A stretch of DNA of 64,000 nt, from the NCBI GenBank assembly GCA_030949385.1, contig JAUZSP010000006.1:128121-192120 (forward strand), in the 5' to 3' direction. Under the pieces are notes generated by a model. That model saw nothing but the letters and a program-made list of their open reading frames with translations. It ran no database searches and was not told the origin of the DNA. This DNA comes from Gammaproteobacteria bacterium. GTDB lineage: Bacteria; Pseudomonadota; Gammaproteobacteria; JAUZRS01. This document shows positions 36,170 through 44,210 of the stretch, in pieces; position 1 is the stretch's first letter, and each line of letters opens with the position of its first letter. A program made the position numbers and the translations under genes.

Positions 36170-37396
36170 ATGCCTGATCAGAGCAAGTCCGAGCACGATG
36201 CAGAGTACGATCTGATTTTGGTGGGCGGCGGCATGGTGGGCGCAACCCTCGCCTGTGCGCTGCAACAGAGTGGGTTGAAAATCGCTCTGTTGGAGGTGTA
36301 TCCGTTTGCCTCAGCGCAGCAGCCGAGTTACGACGACCGTTCCACGGCGCTCTCTTTTGGCTCCCGGGGGCTGTATGAAAAGCTCGGTCTGTGGACGGAG
36401 CTGCGGGAGGGGGCGACGGCGATTGATAAGATCCACATTTCAGATCGTGGCCATTTTGGCGCGGCGCGGCTGGACTGTCAGGAAGAGGGGGTGGATGCGC
36501 TGGGGTATGTGATCGAGAACCGTATTTTGGGGCAGGTGCTGGCGGAACGTTTGGAATTGCAAGGAGGCATTGAGTTGATTATGCCCGCGCAGGTGGAGCG
36601 GGTGGAGAACGGCAGCGATGGGGTGACTGTGACGCTGCAACAGGCGGGGGAGTTGCGTTGTTTGCAGGCCAAGTTGGTGGTGGTGGCGGACGGCAGTGAG
36701 TCGGCGCTGCGTCAGCAGTTGGGTGTGCCGACGGAGCAGAAACGCTACGGCCAGACGGCGATTATCTGCAATATCAGCACGGATCGTCAGCATAATAACG
36801 TCGCTTATGAGCGTTTTACCGACAGTGGCCCCTTGGCGCTGTTGCCGCTTTCGGCGGGGCGTTGTGCTTTGGTGTTGAGCTGCCTTGATGAGCAGGTTGA
36901 GGCGCTGTTGGCGCTCAGTGATGCGGAGTTTATCGCTCATGTGCAGCGGCGTTTTGGCCATCGCTTGGGGTATTTTACTCGGGTGGGGCGGCGTTCGAGT
37001 TATCCGTTGCAGCTGCTGGAGACAGAATCGCAGCAGCAGGGGCGGGTGTTGTTGCTGGGCAACGCAGCGCGCACCCTGCATCCGGTGGCGGGGCAGGGTC
37101 TGAACTTGGCGCTGCGGGATATGGACGCGCTGTTGGAGTCTCTGTTGGCGGCGGCGCGCAGCGGTGCGGATCTGGGTGCGCCGGTTTTGCTGGCTGAGTT
37201 TGTTGAAGCGCGCCGTGCCGATCAGCGCCAAGTGGTGCGCATCACTGACGGTCTGGTGACGCTGTTTTCCAATGGGTTTGCTCCCGTGGTGGCGTTGCGT
37301 GGTGCGGGGTTGTTGGCGTTGGATCTGCTGCCTGCGCTGCGTCATCGTTTGGCGAAACAGATGATGGGTTTGGGGGGACGGTTGCCTCGTTGGTAG
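36170..37396 (+). CDS. ubiH: 2-octaprenyl-6-methoxyphenol hydroxylase UbiH
   Basis: Encodes 408 aa. FAD-binding GGGMVGATLACAL at the N-terminus, the DDRSTALSFGSRGLYEKLGLW stretch typical of UbiH, and LLGNAARTLHPVAGQGLNLALRD near the C-terminus. It is a flavin monooxygenase of ubiquinone synthesis. In E. coli ubiI follows directly. Here ubiI is about 5.6 kb away, on the far side of the CRISPR island. Confidence 0.94.
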   Translation: MPDQSKSEHDAEYDLILVGGGMVGATLACALQQSGLKIALLEVYPFASAQQPSYDDRSTALSFGSRGLYEKLGLWTELREGATAIDKIHISDRGHFGAARLDCQEEGVDALGYVIENRILGQVLAERLELQGGIELIMPAQVERVENGSDGVTVTLQQAGELRCLQAKLVVVADGSESALRQQLGVPTEQKRYGQTAIICNISTDRQHNNVAYERFTDSGPLALLPLSAGRCALVLSCLDEQVEALLALSDAEFIAHVQRRFGHRLGYFTRVGRRSSYPLQLLETESQQQGRVLLLGNAARTLHPVAGQGLNLALRDMDALLESLLAAARSGADLGAPVLLAEFVEARRADQRQVVRITDGLVTLFSNGFAPVVALRGAGLLALDLLPALRHRLAKQMMGLGGRLPRW

Positions 37397-37450
37397 TGGG
37401 AGAGGGGTCGGTTTTAAACCTACCTGTGATGATTGTGGCGGTGTCACAGG

Positions 37451-37481
37451 GTAGGGCGCATTAACCAAGGGGCAATGCGCC
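37451..37481 (+). repeat. Family-B palindromic repeat at the left edge of the CRISPR island
   Basis: GTAGGGCGCATTAACC...GGGGCAATGCGCC, a diverged copy of the REP-like unit clustered around the RAYT at 51.4 kb. It starts 54 bp after the ubiH stop. Another copy is at 41886-41916, to the right of the array. Confidence 0.7.
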
Positions 37482-37499
37482 GATAAATTCAAGCAAGAG

Positions 37500-37674
37500 C
37501 AAAGCCCCAAGCAATCGGGGCAATGTTTCAAACGTTCAACTATTCGTTATCAGACTCCGTTTCCCACTGAATTTCTCCGCTTTCACTTGCACTCAAATCA
37601 CGCATTGGGCTATCTCCTTTAGATAACGATACCAGATTTCTTAATCCCTTCTTCATTAGGGCAATGTTTCAAAC
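37500..37674. repeat. Possible relic of a second CRISPR-like repeat type
   Basis: Two segments end in GGGCAATGTTTCAAAC, at about 37518-37533 and 37659-37674. Each is preceded by a C-rich arm that can pair with the G run (GCCCC...GGGGC and TCCCT...AGGG). They are 141 bp apart, about two repeat-plus-spacer periods. No intact third copy is visible between them. The ...TTTCAAAC ending resembles CRISPR repeats, but the evidence is thin. Confidence 0.35.
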
Positions 37675-37885
37675 TCTTAAAAATACACCTTTGTCAGATA
37701 CAAACATCCTTTCTAGTCAACACCCTAAAACAGCGGCATCACATCAGGTGGGCGTACCAATCATTGACGCTTAATTTCAAAAAAAACTCATTTGTTGTGC
37801 TCCTCGTTGTTCGATGAGTGAAGTCTAGCGGTTTCTATGGGCGTTATGGATTTGGCAAGCTTGTCTTATCTTTTTTTATGAGGTG

Positions 37886-37921
37886 GTGCGAAATCTAGCC
37901 TCGTTAGAAGGGGTCTGAGAC
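37886..37921 (+). repeat. Solitary decayed CRISPR repeat upstream of the cas genes
   Basis: Matches the main array repeat at 30 of 36 positions (GTGCGAAATC...GGGGTCTGAGAC). The bases before it (TTTTTTTATGAGGT) resemble the end of the main leader (TTTTTTTAGGAGGT). The bases after it (TTTAAGTCT, then a family-A repeat) resemble the end of the main array (TTTAAATCT, then the same element). It therefore looks like a leader, one repeat and a trailer, with no spacers. Confidence 0.8.
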
Positions 37922-37937
37922 TTTAAGTCTCCATGCT

Positions 37938-38021
37938 ATGGCAGACCTTATGGATTCCCGCCTTCGCGGGAATGACGGGAGTGATGGGAGTGATGGGAGT
38001 GATGGGAGTGATGGGAGTGAC
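37938..38021. repeat. Family-A palindromic repeat with 6x9-bp tail
   Basis: Hairpin GGATTCCCGCC-TTC-GCGGGAATGAC followed by a tandem array of 9-bp units (GGGAATGAC, then GGGAGTGAT four times, then GGGAGTGAC; 37968-38021). The unit is clearly derived from the right arm of the hairpin. A 71-aa frame read through it is a repeat artefact. Confidence 0.85.
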
Positions 38022-38147
38022 GATGCACTTCTTTTTAACCAACTGTGTAACAGCCGTTAAGAATCGCGGCGACAAGCTTGCCATTTCACCTCTTTATTTC
38101 CCTTTCGCTTATTGTCGCTCTCTCAAGTTTAGGGAGGGGGTTTTTTG

Positions 38148-38426
38148 ATGAAAAAACGGGCGGCCATTATCGCGTATGACATTTCTTGTGATCGTCGGCG
38201 TTATCGGGTGTTAAAAATTTTAAAAGAGTGGCGTTTGGATGGGCAAAAATCGGTGCATGAGTGTCTGCTGAGCGAGTCGCAGGCCGAAGAGCTGTTTTTG
38301 CAACTTGCGGAATTTATTCAGGCAGAGGATCGTTTGTTGTTGGCGTGGTTGCACGGTCATCGTGAGGGATCTTCCCGTGGTGTGGGACAGATGGCGGTCA
38401 AAAAAGGCATTATTTTGCTCAATTAG
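38148..38426 (+). CDS. cas2: CRISPR-associated endoribonuclease-fold protein Cas2
   Basis: Encodes 92 aa. The ferredoxin-like fold starts RAAIIAYDISCDRRRYRVLKIL with the conserved Asp, then LDGQKSVHECLLS and RLLLAWLHG. Cas2 dimers bridge Cas1 dimers in the spacer-integration complex. ATG 38148 has the strong ribosome binding site AGGGAGGGGG. It opens a four-gene operon with a second Cas2-type gene, cas1 and a reverse transcriptase. Confidence 0.9.
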   Translation: MKKRAAIIAYDISCDRRRYRVLKILKEWRLDGQKSVHECLLSESQAEELFLQLAEFIQAEDRLLLAWLHGHREGSSRGVGQMAVKKGIILLN

Positions 38427-38440
38427 AGGGAGCGTGGTTG

Positions 38441-38788
38441 ATGCAGAAAAAAGGGTGGTATCTGATTGCCTATGACATTAAGCAGGCGCGTCGCTTGAAA
38501 CGTGTTCACCGTTTTTTCAAAAAAAGAGCGTTGTGGGTGCAGCAGTCGGTGTTTTTTGCTCAGTGCAGTGAAGCGGAGTTGCACGACTGGCTGAATGAGG
38601 CGCTGACGTTGATGGAGTCAAAAGAGGATGATTTGCGGGCTTGGCCGATTTATCACCCAAGTAAGGTGTGGTTGCAGGGAGAGTCGCCTTTCAGAGAGGG
38701 CTTGACGGTGCCGGATCGGTCGCGTTCAGAGCGTGAGGGTAATCCGTTGACACGGCTGTTTCGACGTTTTTTGGGGGAGGTTCGGTGA
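38441..38788 (+). CDS. Second Cas2-type protein
   Basis: Encodes 115 aa. WYLIAYDIKQARRLKRVHRFFKKRALWVQQSVFFAQCSEAELHDWL is a Cas2 fold with the catalytic-position Asp kept. It is only weakly similar to the first Cas2 and carries a ~40-residue basic C-terminal extension (VPDRSRSEREGNPLTRLFRRFLGEVR). AGAGGGAG precedes ATG 38441. The stop overlaps the cas1 start as GTGA. It could form heterodimers with the first Cas2, or bind the reverse transcriptase or RNA; this is inference. Confidence 0.85.
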   Translation: MQKKGWYLIAYDIKQARRLKRVHRFFKKRALWVQQSVFFAQCSEAELHDWLNEALTLMESKEDDLRAWPIYHPSKVWLQGESPFREGLTVPDRSRSEREGNPLTRLFRRFLGEVR

Positions 38789-39768
38789 GCGATTTTTTGT
38801 TGGTGATTGATCGACGTGACACGGTGGTTACGCTGAACGGTGGTGCGTTGCGGGTGGTGCGTTCTGGAGAGACGGCTCAGCAGGTGCCGTTGGGTTTGCT
38901 GGGACAGGTGGTGGTTTACGGCGCGCCTCAGGTGGGGTGTGATGTGTGGCGAGCCTTGTCAAAACGGGGCATTCCGGTGGTGCTGCACTCTTTGCGCGGG
39001 GCGTTGGAGAGCGTTTATATGGGGAGTGTATTGGGGGCTTCCATTGCGGTTCGAGTGGCACAGCATCGTTTGGTGCAGTCGGGCAGCGTTGCGGTGGCGC
39101 AGGATCTTGTTTTGGCTAAGGTGCAGGGGTATCGCCTGTTGTTGGCGCAGTTGCCCGATGGTGAGGGGGTTCGTGAGTCGTTGCGGCAGCGGTTGGATTC
39201 TGTGCCCTCAGCGGAGGGGTGTTCGACCTTGATGGGCATTGAGGGAGCCTGTGGTGCGCTTTGGTGGGGCTGGTTGGCGACGCATTTGCCTGCGTGTTGG
39301 TTGTTTTCGGGGCGTAATCGCCGTCCACCTCAAGATCCGGTTAATGCGTTGCTGTCCTTGAGCTACACCTTGTTGGAGTCTGAGGTGTTGGCGGAGATTC
39401 AGCGTCAAGGGTTTGATCCGGCGTTGGGTTTTTTGCATGGCATCGTGCCGGGACGATCTTCGTTGGTGTTTGATTTGATGGAGCCTTTGCGTGCGGGGGT
39501 GGATGCGTTTGTATTGTCGCTGCTGGATGAGGTGTTGTTGCCGAGTCATTTTAGTGGTGTGGGTGAGGGGTGTCGGTTGGATAAAGAGGGTCGGGCGCTT
39601 TTTTATCGGGCGTGGGCAAAGGCGAGAACGGCGTGGCCTCTGTTGCCCTTTGGGATGGAGTGTGGCGATGAGGCGAGTTTGATGAGGTGTTGTGGTTTTG
39701 TGGCGAAGGGTGTTCGTCACAGTTTGGGGCGTTATTCACCGAGTACGGGGGAGAAAATCTGTGGCTGA
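38785..39768 (+). CDS. cas1: CRISPR integrase Cas1
   Basis: Encodes 327 aa from GTG 38785, with GGGGGAGG upstream. The metal-binding triad is intact: Glu153 (LMGIEGACG), His218 (GFLHG) and Asp230, with Glu233 nearby (SLVFDLMEPLR). The NRRPPQDPVNALLSLSYTLL helix is also typical. Cas1 inserts prespacers at the leader-repeat junction. It is not fused to the reverse transcriptase; the two genes overlap by 8 bp. Confidence 0.94.
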   Translation: MSDFLLVIDRRDTVVTLNGGALRVVRSGETAQQVPLGLLGQVVVYGAPQVGCDVWRALSKRGIPVVLHSLRGALESVYMGSVLGASIAVRVAQHRLVQSGSVAVAQDLVLAKVQGYRLLLAQLPDGEGVRESLRQRLDSVPSAEGCSTLMGIEGACGALWWGWLATHLPACWLFSGRNRRPPQDPVNALLSLSYTLLESEVLAEIQRQGFDPALGFLHGIVPGRSSLVFDLMEPLRAGVDAFVLSLLDEVLLPSHFSGVGEGCRLDKEGRALFYRAWAKARTAWPLLPFGMECGDEASLMRCCGFVAKGVRHSLGRYSPSTGEKICG

Positions 39769-40597
39769 GTTATTGGATCGGGTCTTGAGCCCTGAGGTGA
39801 TGAATCGTGCGTGGCGTGGCTTGAAGCAGGATCGAGCGCAGTGGATGCCAGGTGTGAGCCGAGCTTCCATTGAGAAGGATTGGGTGTTGCATTTGATGCG
39901 TTTGATGGAGGAGGTGAGGGCTGGTGAGTATCAACCGGCGGGGTTGCGTCGTTTTACGATTGCGAAGGCGGATGGCGGTAAGCGGGTGTTGTCGGCGTTG
40001 ACGTTGCGGGATAAGTTGGTGCAAAAGGCGTGTCAGATTGTGCTTGATCCGTTGGCGGAGCGGTTGTTTTCCAATGACAGTTACGCTTATCGGCGGGGTC
40101 GGAGTGTGGAGATGGCGGTTTCTAAGGCGAAGGAGCGGGTGCTGTGTGGTTTGGATTGGTTGGTGGATGCGGACATTCGTACCTTTTTTGATGCTATTCC
40201 GCATGGTGCGTTGCGTAAGGTGTTGCGTGAGTTGGTTAAGGATAAGGATCTGTTGCGGTTGTTGGACCGTTGGTTGGCGGTGGGGTGCTCTCATCAGAGT
40301 CTGTTTGGTCGGCGGCGTGGGATTCCTCAGGGTGCGATTTTATCGCCGCTTTTTTGTAATCTGTATCTGAATCAGATGGATCGCTTGTGGGATAAACAAA
40401 ACATTCAATTTGTTCGTTTTGCCGATGATTTTTTGCTGTTTGCTCCAGATCAAAAACGGGCTGAGCAGATGTTGCGTTACACGGAAAAGCAGTTGTCTAA
40501 GTTGGGTTTGGAGCTGCATGATAAAAAAACGCGGGTGTGTCATAGCGGTGATAAAGTGATTTTTTTAGGGAAGAAGTTGTCTAAACGGCGTTGGTGA
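39761..40597 (+). CDS. Stand-alone CRISPR-associated reverse transcriptase
   Basis: Encodes 278 aa from GTG 39761, which lies 7 bases after GGGGGAG and inside the end of cas1. RT motifs in order: TLRDKLVQKACQIVLDPLAE, SYAYRRGRS, Asp136/Asp138 in LVDADIRTFFDAI, RGIPQGAILSPLFCNLYL, and FADD at 220-223 in place of YADD. The thumb region is short and there is no maturase (domain X) or endonuclease, so it is not a group II intron. The context indicates a role in acquiring spacers from RNA. It resembles the retron/group II-like RTs found next to cas1. Confidence 0.92.
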   Translation: MAELLDRVLSPEVMNRAWRGLKQDRAQWMPGVSRASIEKDWVLHLMRLMEEVRAGEYQPAGLRRFTIAKADGGKRVLSALTLRDKLVQKACQIVLDPLAERLFSNDSYAYRRGRSVEMAVSKAKERVLCGLDWLVDADIRTFFDAIPHGALRKVLRELVKDKDLLRLLDRWLAVGCSHQSLFGRRRGIPQGAILSPLFCNLYLNQMDRLWDKQNIQFVRFADDFLLFAPDQKRAEQMLRYTEKQLSKLGLELHDKKTRVCHSGDKVIFLGKKLSKRRW

Positions 40598-40724
40598 GGT
40601 AGAGTATGGGCTTCGTTACTTCACCTTTAGATCCTATTTAAAAGTTAACTTTTTTGATGAATTTAAGTTGTATTTTTATGGCTTGTAAGCAGTTGAAAAA
40701 TAAGGAGATTTTTTTAGGAGGTCA
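40598..40724 (+). promoter_or_regulatory. CRISPR leader
   Basis: An AT-rich 127-bp region between the RT gene and the first repeat. It contains a perfect 14-bp palindrome, AAAAGTTAACTTTT (40640-40653), which may end RT transcription or bind an integration host factor. The 3' end TTTTTTTAGGAGGTCA abuts repeat 1. New spacers should enter here. The array promoter presumably lies here too, but I cannot fix its boxes. Confidence 0.75.
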
Positions 40725-41527
40725 GTACGAAACCTAGCCCCGTTAGAAGGGGATTAAGACGATTTATAATGATGGGCAATCCCAAACGAGGATGTACGAA
40801 ACCTAGCCCCGTTAGAAGGGGATTAAGACGTACTTATAACGCCTATACCCGTAGTTGTGAGTACGAAACCTAGCCCCGTTAGAAGGGGATTAAGACCAGC
40901 TGATACTTCACGGTGTAAGCCTAGCTACTATCGGTACGAAACCTAGCCCCGTTAGAAGGGGATTAAGACGGCTGTGAATTTGGGACAATCCCAAACCCAC
41001 AGCGTACGAAACCTAGCCCCGTTAGAAGGGGATTAAGACCGTTCCACGGCGTCGACATCCATGTGGGGGAGGTACGAAACCTAGCCCCGTTAGAAGGGGA
41101 TTAAGACACAGCGGGGTGTACCCCAATCACCAGATCTGTACGAAACCTAGCCCCGTTAGAAGGGGATTAAGACATACTGGTGGTTTCTTCTGTTGCAAAT
41201 GCCGCTAAAGTACGAAACCTAGCCCCGTTAGAAGGGGATTAAGACTTATACATGGCTCAGCCACCTGTCCGCTAGCTATGTGGTACGAAACCTAGCCCCG
41301 TTAGAAGGGGATTAAGACCTTGCATCGTTAAATGCATCAAACTGCTTTGTACGAAACCTAGCCCCGTTAGAAGGGGATTAAGACTTGCAACAGGAGCAGT
41401 TTCAATAGCATTTTGTACGAAACCTAGCCCCGTTAGAAGGGGATTAAGACTCTCTGTGAGCGATGAGCTCTGTGAGATGTCGCCGTCATGCGTACGAAAC
41501 CTAGCCCCGTTAGAAGGGGATTAAGAC
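40725..41527 (+). CRISPR. CRISPR array, 12 repeats and 11 spacers
   Basis: Twelve identical 36-bp repeats begin GTACGAAACC and end GGGGATTAAGAC, with internal stem CCCC-GTTAGAA-GGGG. Repeat starts: 40725, 40794, 40861, 40934, 41004, 41072, 41138, 41210, 41283, 41349, 41415, 41492. Spacers are 33, 31, 37, 34, 32, 30, 36, 37, 30, 30 and 41 nt. The last eight bases (ATTAAGAC) would form the crRNA 5' handle, so transcription should run on the plus strand from the RT side. The variable spacer length fits type III-like systems. No effector genes are present in the window. Confidence 0.98.
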
Positions 41528-41539
41528 TTTAAATCTCAA

Positions 41540-41740
41540 GTCTGTGGCAAGCCCTATGGATTCCCGCCTTCGCGGGAATGACGAGCTTTGTGGGAATGAC
41601 GAGCTTTGTGGGAATGACGAGCTTTGTGGGAATGACGAGCTTTGTGGGAATGATGAGCTTTGTGGGAATGATGAGCTTTGTGGGAATGATGAGCTTTGTG
41701 GGAATGACGAGCTTCGCGGGAATGATGAGCAAAAAATAAA
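41540..41740. repeat. Family-A palindromic repeat with 18-bp tandem expansion
   Basis: Hairpin GGATTCCCGCC-TTC-GCGGGAATGACG, then the 18-bp unit GGGAATGACGAGCTTTGT repeated from 41574; nine GGGAATG starts at 18-bp spacing, the last partial at 41718. Unit 8 has a GCTTCGCGGG variant and several units carry GATGAG for GACGAG. The tail GAGCAAAAAATA is shared with the single-copy element at 44.2 kb. Apparent ORFs on both strands here are repeat translations. Confidence 0.9.
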
Positions 41741-42069: not shown

Positions 42070-43014
42070 ATGACCTCACCCGCCGTGCCGCTGGCTCAGT
42101 ATCGTTTTACCTTACGGGCATTGGAGCCTATTTGTTTGCCTGATTACAGCGGCTCCGCGTGGCGCGGGGTGTTTGGCCATGCCTTGAAAGATCTGGCCTG
42201 CGTGACCAAACAGAAAACCTGTTCGAGCTGTCAGCTCTATCGCGGCTGTGTTTACAGCTATTTGTTTGAAACCCCACCGCCGCTGGGCAGTGAAAAAATG
42301 GCCAACGGCTCTGCCGCACCTCACCCCTATATTTTGGTGCCAAGCGACGCAAAAGTGCTTCAGGTGGGGGAGACGTATGCGTTGGGTTTGACCCTGTTTG
42401 GCCGGGCTAATCGCCATTTGGACTATGTGATTTATGCCTTGAATAAGGCCGGTGAGCGGGGCATTGGCCGAGATCATGGGCGTTTTGAGCTGCACACGGT
42501 GGCGCAGAAGAGCGCCGATGGCAGCCATCAAATCATCTACAAAAAGGGCGAATCGGTGCGATCCCAACCCCTGTTTGAGCGTGATGTTCCGGCGTTGCCC
42601 GATGCAGTAACGATCACCTTGCATACGCCCTTACGTTTGCGCTCGAAGGGTAAAAATGTGCGCCCTGAGGGGTTCCTCTTTCGACAGTTTTTCTCCAGCT
42701 TATTAAGACGCTTTTCATTGCTGCGTTATTTTCACAGCGACGCGCCTTTGCGGGGTGATGTGGTTCAGTTGGCGGCGTTGGCGCACTCGGTAACGTTGTT
42801 GGAAGCGGATCTGCGCTGGCACGAATGGCGGCGTTATTCCAGTCGGCAGAAAAATGTGATTCCTATGGGCGGTATTGTGGGTTCTTTTTGCATTAAAACC
42901 TCTCAACTGGCTCCGCTGTGGCCTTACCTTTGGCTCGGACAGCAGATGCACACCGGCAAGGGCAGCAGTATGGGTTTGGGGCGTTACTCACTGATGTTAG
43001 AGGCTAAAAAATGA
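42070..43014 (+). CDS. cas6: CRISPR pre-crRNA endoribonuclease Cas6 (RAMP)
   Basis: Encodes 314 aa from ATG 42070 with GGAG upstream. N-terminal RAMP fold with AWRGVFGHALKDLACV and a four-cysteine cluster (TCSSCQLYRGC plus CV), then a C-terminal Cas6 domain ending in the glycine-rich loop GKGSSMGLGRY. The N-terminal cysteines are typical of a Cas6 subgroup with PYILVP and LTLFG motifs. It would cut the array transcript at the repeat hairpin. The stop overlaps the ubiI start as ATGA, so cas6 is translationally coupled to a housekeeping gene. Confidence 0.88.
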   Translation: MTSPAVPLAQYRFTLRALEPICLPDYSGSAWRGVFGHALKDLACVTKQKTCSSCQLYRGCVYSYLFETPPPLGSEKMANGSAAPHPYILVPSDAKVLQVGETYALGLTLFGRANRHLDYVIYALNKAGERGIGRDHGRFELHTVAQKSADGSHQIIYKKGESVRSQPLFERDVPALPDAVTITLHTPLRLRSKGKNVRPEGFLFRQFFSSLLRRFSLLRYFHSDAPLRGDVVQLAALAHSVTLLEADLRWHEWRRYSSRQKNVIPMGGIVGSFCIKTSQLAPLWPYLWLGQQMHTGKGSSMGLGRYSLMLEAKK

Positions 43015-44210
43015 AACAAACACGGTTTGATGTGATTGTGGTGGGGGCGGGCATGGTGGGTGCGGCGTTGGCCTGTGCTTTGGGTTTGGGTGGCAAACGG
43101 GTGGCGCTGCTGGAGCCTCATTTGCCCGTCTCGTTTGATCTTGATGCCGAGCCGGATCTGCGCGTCTCGGCCATTAACCGTGCTTCGCAAGCGCTGTTTG
43201 AGCGGCTCGGGGTATGGCAGACGCTGGCGGCGCAGCGCATCAGCCCCTTTGAAAACATGACGGTTTGGGATGCCACCGGCTCCGGTGAGATTCATTTTGA
43301 CAGCGCTGAGATGGGGGAGCCGTATTTGGGGCACATCATCGAGAATCGCTTGGTGCAGTGGGCGTTGTTGCAGCGGTTGGCACAACTGGCGTCGGTGACG
43401 GTGATCGAGGCGGCTTTGAGTGAACTGGCCTTTGAGCCGGATCAGGTGACGGTGAGCTTGGCGGACGGCACCGAGTTGAGCGCAGAGGTGCTGGTGGGTG
43501 CGGATGGGGCGCATTCACGGGTGCGTGCGTTGGCGGGCATTGAGGTGCAGAGCCGGGCGTATGATCAAAAGGGCATCGTCTGTCATGTGGCGACGGAAAA
43601 GCCCCATCAGCGCACGGCGTGGCAGCGTTTTTTGCCCAGCGGCCCATTGGCCTTTTTGCCCCTTGCCGATGGGCGCTGTTCCCTTGTCTGGTCTTGTGAC
43701 GATGCGGTGGCGGAGCAGATGATGGCGCTCTCTGATGAGGATTTTCGGCTTGAATTGGCGCAGGCGTTTGATCGGCGTTTGGGAGCGGTGACGGCGGTCA
43801 GTGAGCGGGCGGCGTTTCCGCTGCTGCGTCGTCATGCCGAGCAGTACGTTAAACCGCGTTTGGCCTTGGTGGGCGATGCGGCGCACACCATCCATCCGCT
43901 GGCGGGGCAGGGGGTGAACATCGGTCTGTTGGATGCGTCGGCCTTGACGGAGAGTCTACTGGAGTCGAAAGGCGACCTTGGGCAACTGCGGGTGTTGCGG
44001 CGTTACGAGCGTTGGCGGCGCGGTAATAACAGTCTGATGATGCATTCGATGGACGGTTTTTATGGGTTGTTTGGTAACGATCATCTGCCGCTGGTGCAGT
44101 TGCGTAATTTTGCGCTTTCGTTTGCGGATCGTGTCTCGCCGTTGAAGTCGCAGTTGATGCGTCATGCGATGGGGTTGGAGGGCGATTTGCCGGAGTTGTC
44201 GCGCAGTTGA
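43011..44210 (+). CDS. ubiI: Ubiquinone-biosynthesis flavin hydroxylase UbiI (VisC)
   Basis: Encodes 399 aa. FAD motif GAGMVGAALACAL, DLRVSAINRASQALFERLGVW and GDAAHTIHPLAGQGVNIGLLD. It is closer to UbiI/UbiF/VisC than to UbiH (no DDRSTALS stretch). It hydroxylates a polyprenylphenol at C5. It should be co-transcribed with ubiH but is now directly behind cas6. Confidence 0.92.
   Translation: MKQTRFDVIVVGAGMVGAALACALGLGGKRVALLEPHLPVSFDLDAEPDLRVSAINRASQALFERLGVWQTLAAQRISPFENMTVWDATGSGEIHFDSAEMGEPYLGHIIENRLVQWALLQRLAQLASVTVIEAALSELAFEPDQVTVSLADGTELSAEVLVGADGAHSRVRALAGIEVQSRAYDQKGIVCHVATEKPHQRTAWQRFLPSGPLAFLPLADGRCSLVWSCDDAVAEQMMALSDEDFRLELAQAFDRRLGAVTAVSERAAFPLLRRHAEQYVKPRLALVGDAAHTIHPLAGQGVNIGLLDASALTESLLESKGDLGQLRVLRRYERWRRGNNSLMMHSMDGFYGLFGNDHLPLVQLRNFALSFADRVSPLKSQLMRHAMGLEGDLPELSRS

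Follow-up and report, generated by a model that had tools for sequence, protein, structure and literature searches.

Why does a solitary, degenerate CRISPR repeat stand upstream of the first cas2 of a locus whose working array lies downstream of cas1? We considered this question in a stretch of 64,000 nucleotides (the window) within contig C6 of a genome of 2.87 Mb (G000). The CRISPR locus sits there between two ubiH/ubiI-like genes (36170-37396 and 43011-44210), whose names rest on their position beside pepP- and gcvT-like reading frames. It consists, in this order, of two cas2 genes, cas1, a group II-like reverse transcriptase (RT) gene, a leader, an array and cas6, and no effector gene was found in it (Table 1). 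We regard 37872-38023, with a probability of roughly 0.7, as the remains of a duplicate of the locus's own array, collapsed and spacerless.

With a group II intron-type RT beside cas1 and cas2, the locus qualifies as an RT-associated adaptation module. It resembles the type III modules in which the RT is separate from Cas1 (Toro et al., 2018, PMC6013744), where a group II-intron-like RT likewise lies beside Cas1 with the array adjacent, but here cas1 comes after two cas2 genes. These tandem cas2 genes (38145-38788) differ from each other, the same pair precedes cas1-RT in five relatives' loci (L060-L064), and it may give a mixed Cas2 dimer. Within the main array, spacers 1 and 4 (40761-40793 and 40970-41003) have GGG(A)CAATCCCAAAC in common.

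Table 1. Features of the relic, of the intact locus and of the corresponding deletion scar in the congener. Coordinates are those of the window unless another locus is named.
Feature	Coordinates	Strand	Remark
Inverted III-B locus scrap	37672..37874	-	replaces rest of leader
Leader-proximal end remnant TTTTTTTATGAGGT	37872..37885	+	13/14 to main leader
Solitary degenerate CRISPR repeat	37886..37921	+	30/36 to main repeat
Trailer remnant TTTAAGTCTC	37922..37931	+	9/10 to main trailer TTTAAATCTC
Family-A dispersed palindromic element	37932..37976	+	left-truncated like main-trailer copy
9-bp tandem repeats GGGAGTGAT	37977..38023	+	adjoin element end; main copy has 18-bp units instead
First cas2	38145..38426	+	
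Second cas2	38438..38788	+	
cas1	38785..39768	+	
Reverse transcriptase, group II intron type	39761..40597	+	
Main leader	40600..40724	+	carries AGTTAACTTTT and TTGTAAGC motifs
Main array	40725..41527	+	12 identical 36-nt repeats, 11 spacers
Main trailer TTTAAATCTC, family-A element, 18-bp tandem repeats	41528..41729	+	
cas6	42070..43014	+	
Deletion scar, RT fragment and cas6 end	L074 (G001:C184) ~100-165	minus	GCGTTAC junction

The solitary repeat (GTGCGAAATCTAGCCTCGTTAGAAGGGGTCTGAGAC) is identical at 30 of 36 positions to all 12 repeats of the main array (GTACGAAACCTAGCCCCGTTAGAAGGGGATTAAGAC), as originally predicted. The best matches in 60 mononucleotide shuffles of the 5.15-kb upstream region averaged 19.8 and did not exceed 22, and outside the main array and the relic no site in the window matched the main repeat at more than 21/36. 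The repeat is thus clearly derived from the local one, and neither a second repeat nor a spacer of the main family adjoins it. Directly 3' of it, the trailer sequence TTTAA[G/A]TCTC matches in register, as well as only 3 in 100,000 window positions do, and the similarity on this side extends without gaps over 126 nt at 79% (37886-38011 versus 41492-41617). On the 5' side, similarity covers 52 ungapped columns at 83% (37871-37921 versus 40709-40760), where a leader end of about 14 nt, TTTTTTTA[T/G]GAGGT, is common to the main array and the relic with a one-base offset. The score of the 24 nt 5' of the repeat was equalled by 0.055% of random window 24-mers. Among T6-bearing 24-mers the proportion was 1.9% when scored locally and 0.33% when the match had to lie at a fixed position from the repeat; at fixed position it was 0.015% of all 24-mers. 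The leader-end match is therefore moderately, not overwhelmingly, significant because of its T-run. Both flanks are homologous to the leader and the trailer of the intact array, strongly on the trailer side and in a shorter and weaker way on the leader side. Similarity is accordingly not limited to the repeat and the dispersed element, the outcome that would have spoken against the original prediction, but it exceeds them by only about 24 nt. Since pieces of both main-array ends surround a single repeat, 37872-38023 is, judged by its sequence, related by homology to the two ends of the array and represents their collapse into leader, repeat and trailer with no spacer left.

The family-A element next to the trailer remnant occurs at many sites in the genome. 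Among the copies examined, only the two at the CRISPR repeats have the truncated left end next to a repeat; in the others, either CACATGAATCTATGACA stands left of the shared portion or the element starts elsewhere, and the left (trailer) context of the relic was absent from all of them. Moreover, both CRISPR-associated copies carry the variant TGGCA, whereas the other full-length copies examined have TGACA. The claim that trailer and element follow the repeat just as they do at the main array is therefore upheld, down to the same truncation.

The leader-like segment that was proposed in front of the repeat fared less well. Its last 14 nt stand, but farther upstream, from about 37872-37875, the sequence is not a leader but an inverted scrap of a III-B locus. 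Read on the minus strand, the scrap joins two parts: 37756-37874 resembles, at 82% identity, the promoter region of a III-B small-peptide gene (L041:3507-3623), and 37672-37764 shows 74% identity to the sequence preceding the III-B cas6 (L041:4047-4139). Two decayed repeats of the III-B family lie farther upstream, at 37638-37674 (35/37) and at 37518-37533 (first 16 nt only). The relic, the III-B scrap and these decayed repeats together make the intergenic region a fossil patchwork from two CRISPR families. The two decayed III-B repeats (37518-37674 with what lies between them, minus strand) enclose a unique stretch of 103 nt, which was not found elsewhere in the two genomes of the genus that were searched and which holds an ORF of 21 amino acids, MRDLSASESGEIQWETESDNE (37540-37605, minus strand), with a good ribosome site. 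A third CRISPR system lies just past the window, 7.5 kb from its end (G000:C6:199583-211000, L081). It has cas3 and a long array with a 29-nt type I-E-like repeat, GTGTTCCCCACAGTCGTGGGGATTAACCG; this repeat is unrelated.

The III-B locus on contig C3 of the same genome (G000:C3:516001-536000, L041) provides a precedent for the layout. Its III-B (Cmr) effector is accompanied by its own cas6, a Csx1-like CARF-HEPN protein and another CARF protein, and two arrays of the same orientation lie one on either side of the cas genes. Between the two arrays, identity is 98% across 216 nt of leader and 99% across 199 nt of trailer; in addition, array 1 is preceded by a decayed duplicate of the 3'-terminal part of the cas2 that stands before array 2. 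On comparison of these sequences, the pair looks like a segmental duplication of the cas2 3' end, leader, array and trailer. As in the window, arrays of one orientation with homologous leaders and trailers stand around the cas genes; in the III-B locus, however, both arrays are intact, have different spacers and keep ends that are 98-99% identical, whereas one of the two copies in the window has collapsed and diverged. The relic of the window has this topology too, at an older stage and after collapse. Around the III-B cas genes lie several very small genes that encode hydrophobic peptides rich in glycine and alanine (L041 3560-4040 and 14250-15600). The III-B cas1 lacks its middle (L041 17130-17655), so the III-B arrays may depend on the cas1-cas2-RT of the window for new spacers.

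On the preferred reading, that of a collapsed second array, the leader end, array and trailer would have been copied upstream of cas2-cas2-cas1-RT in the same orientation, as the homology and the fresh III-B parallel suggest. Recombination between the first and the last repeat would then have removed all spacers and left leader, repeat and trailer. A rearrangement, whose junction is seen at about 37872-37875, would have set the inverted III-B scrap against the relic and shortened the leader to about 14 nt, and the leftover repeat would have drifted, as is seen in its changes, the crRNA tag included. The weakest link of this reading is the leader end, with its short and T-rich homology. If those bases were a chance T-run, only the trailer end (last repeat, trailer and element) might have been copied, perhaps through recombination between family-A elements. 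The strongest homology does lie on the trailer side, 1.9% of T6-bearing 24-mers equal the leader-end match, and no scrap of the RT 3' end was found before the relic, unlike the cas2 3' end in the III-B case. But the leader end also keeps its position relative to the repeat, a coincidence that the figures at fixed position make rare, and we consider a copy of the trailer end only rather improbable. The original prediction had also raised a duplication that inserted the cas genes; in a related reading, the cas genes would have entered one array and split it into two ends. Homologous array ends on either side of the cas genes would fit such an event, but a single split array would not give a leader end and a trailer end on each side, and the relatives keep the cas module with its own adjacent array; four members of the class among them retain cas2-cas2-cas1-RT, in five loci altogether. 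The III-B layout likewise supports array duplication over cas-gene insertion, since an array with its leader was plainly copied across cas genes there. We therefore give the insertion hardly any credence.

Does the leftover repeat still do anything? It had been suggested that a spacerless leader-repeat could still accept spacers. The repeat is of full length, its 5' junction is leader-like and a complete cas2-cas1-RT set adjoins it. However, the main and III-B leaders have two motifs in common at matching distances, AGTTAACTTTT near -80 and TTGTAAGC near -42, and both are absent at the relic, where the leader is reduced to about 14 nt. A spacer and a second repeat are missing as well, and the relic repeat has six changes while the 12 repeats of the working array are identical, so that continued acceptance of spacers is highly unlikely. 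A regulatory function of an ectopic repeat, as a crRNA-like or Cas6-binding RNA acting on the cas genes in the manner of CreA/CreTA or scaRNA, also seems very unlikely. The relic does lie just 5' of the cas operon, and its stem CCUC/GGGG could still form if one G-U pair is allowed. Degenerate repeats with functions do exist outside arrays: CreTA repeats, like the relic, lie near cas genes, and in that system type I Cascade is guided to a toxin gene by CreA (Cheng et al., 2022, PMC9458426), but neither a guide match nor such a target was found at the relic. For the 36 nt 3' of the relic repeat, no complement in the locus was better than those of shuffled guides, except for the homologous trailer. 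No sigma-70-like promoter was found in a scan of 37400-38200, the hairpin of the relic is no better than those of shuffles, and an Rfam search gave nothing for it.

In type III systems, the last 8 nt of the repeat become the 5' tag of the crRNA. This tag is ATTAAGAC or ATTGAGAC in six repeat families from this genome and its relatives and TCTGAGAC in the relic, where 3 of its 8 positions are changed; they account for half of the six changes in the repeat. Because such a share is by itself not unusual (hypergeometric 0.11), the relic shows a tag that was lost rather than one changed in a targeted way. Divergence is alike in the repeat (30/36) and in the adjoining trailer (22/30; Fisher p = 0.38), and there is therefore no sign of stronger constraint on the repeat. 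One degenerate repeat between both array-end pieces, with its tag changed, no second repeat and the leader motifs gone, bears out the suggestion of a dead array, and the relic is most likely without present function. The box GACAAGCTTGCC at 38071, also present in promoters of III-B small-peptide genes, is found between the relic and the first cas2, about 70 nt short of the latter. From this position, transcription of the cas genes would seem to begin 3' of the relic, and the operon is probably driven from there. Boxes of the type CAAGCTTG occur at 37856 and 38073 in the window and at 409, 3518, 14129, 15044 and 15678 in L041. They precede cas2 and most of the III-B small-peptide genes, in many cases with an AT-rich -10-like stretch about 35 nt farther on, and may be a shared operator.

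Close relatives of cas1 were sought in GTDB genomes and in samples of the class, order, family and genus, and one congener (G001) was compared. The relic is absent from G001, the sole congener compared, whose copy of the locus is deleted. In G001 a different gene lies between ubiH and ubiI. A stretch of 23 bases there matches the RT at 21/23, which none of 300 shuffles equalled, and this RT fragment is fused to the last cas6 codons at a 7-base shared sequence. Given this scar, the CRISPR locus was probably present in the common ancestor and then deleted in G001. More distant relatives were examined upstream of cas2 for a comparable relic, and nothing exceeded chance in G037 (in the gap from cas2 to the array), in the two loci of G365 or in G272. 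In G037 the array itself is placed upstream of cas2 in divergent orientation, so that such a position is by itself uninformative. In G016, a sequence 1.9 kb upstream of cas2 and apparently intergenic (L060 6121-6156, minus strand) matches the G016 repeat at 26/36 and is followed by a hairpin-like sequence; it is possibly a degenerate repeat, the only one upstream among the relatives examined.

Solitary repeats are known from other genomes. In Escherichia and Salmonella, a CRISPR locus may have just one repeat and may be degenerate, and arrays with similar leaders occur there within one genome (Touchon and Rocha, 2010, PMC2886076). Those degenerate loci are like the relic, but they lie at fixed chromosome spots, whereas the relic is part of an RT-containing adaptation module and has fragments of a second CRISPR family mixed in. 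No account of arrays duplicated around cas operons came up in our literature search. It is conceivable, though doubtful, that copying leader, array and trailer, with a neighbouring cas-gene end, across the cas genes is a recurrent route by which type III loci gain a second array. If so, this genome would hold one fresh case in the III-B locus and one fossil showing the fate of the spare copy.

Finally, as the fossil of a worn-out spare array the relic is fairly ordinary, and it points to no new mechanism of immunity. It bears on the gain and loss of arrays by CRISPR loci: array duplication around type III cas genes would be visible within one genome at two stages, as a fresh pair and as a fossil that has collapsed and is drifting.
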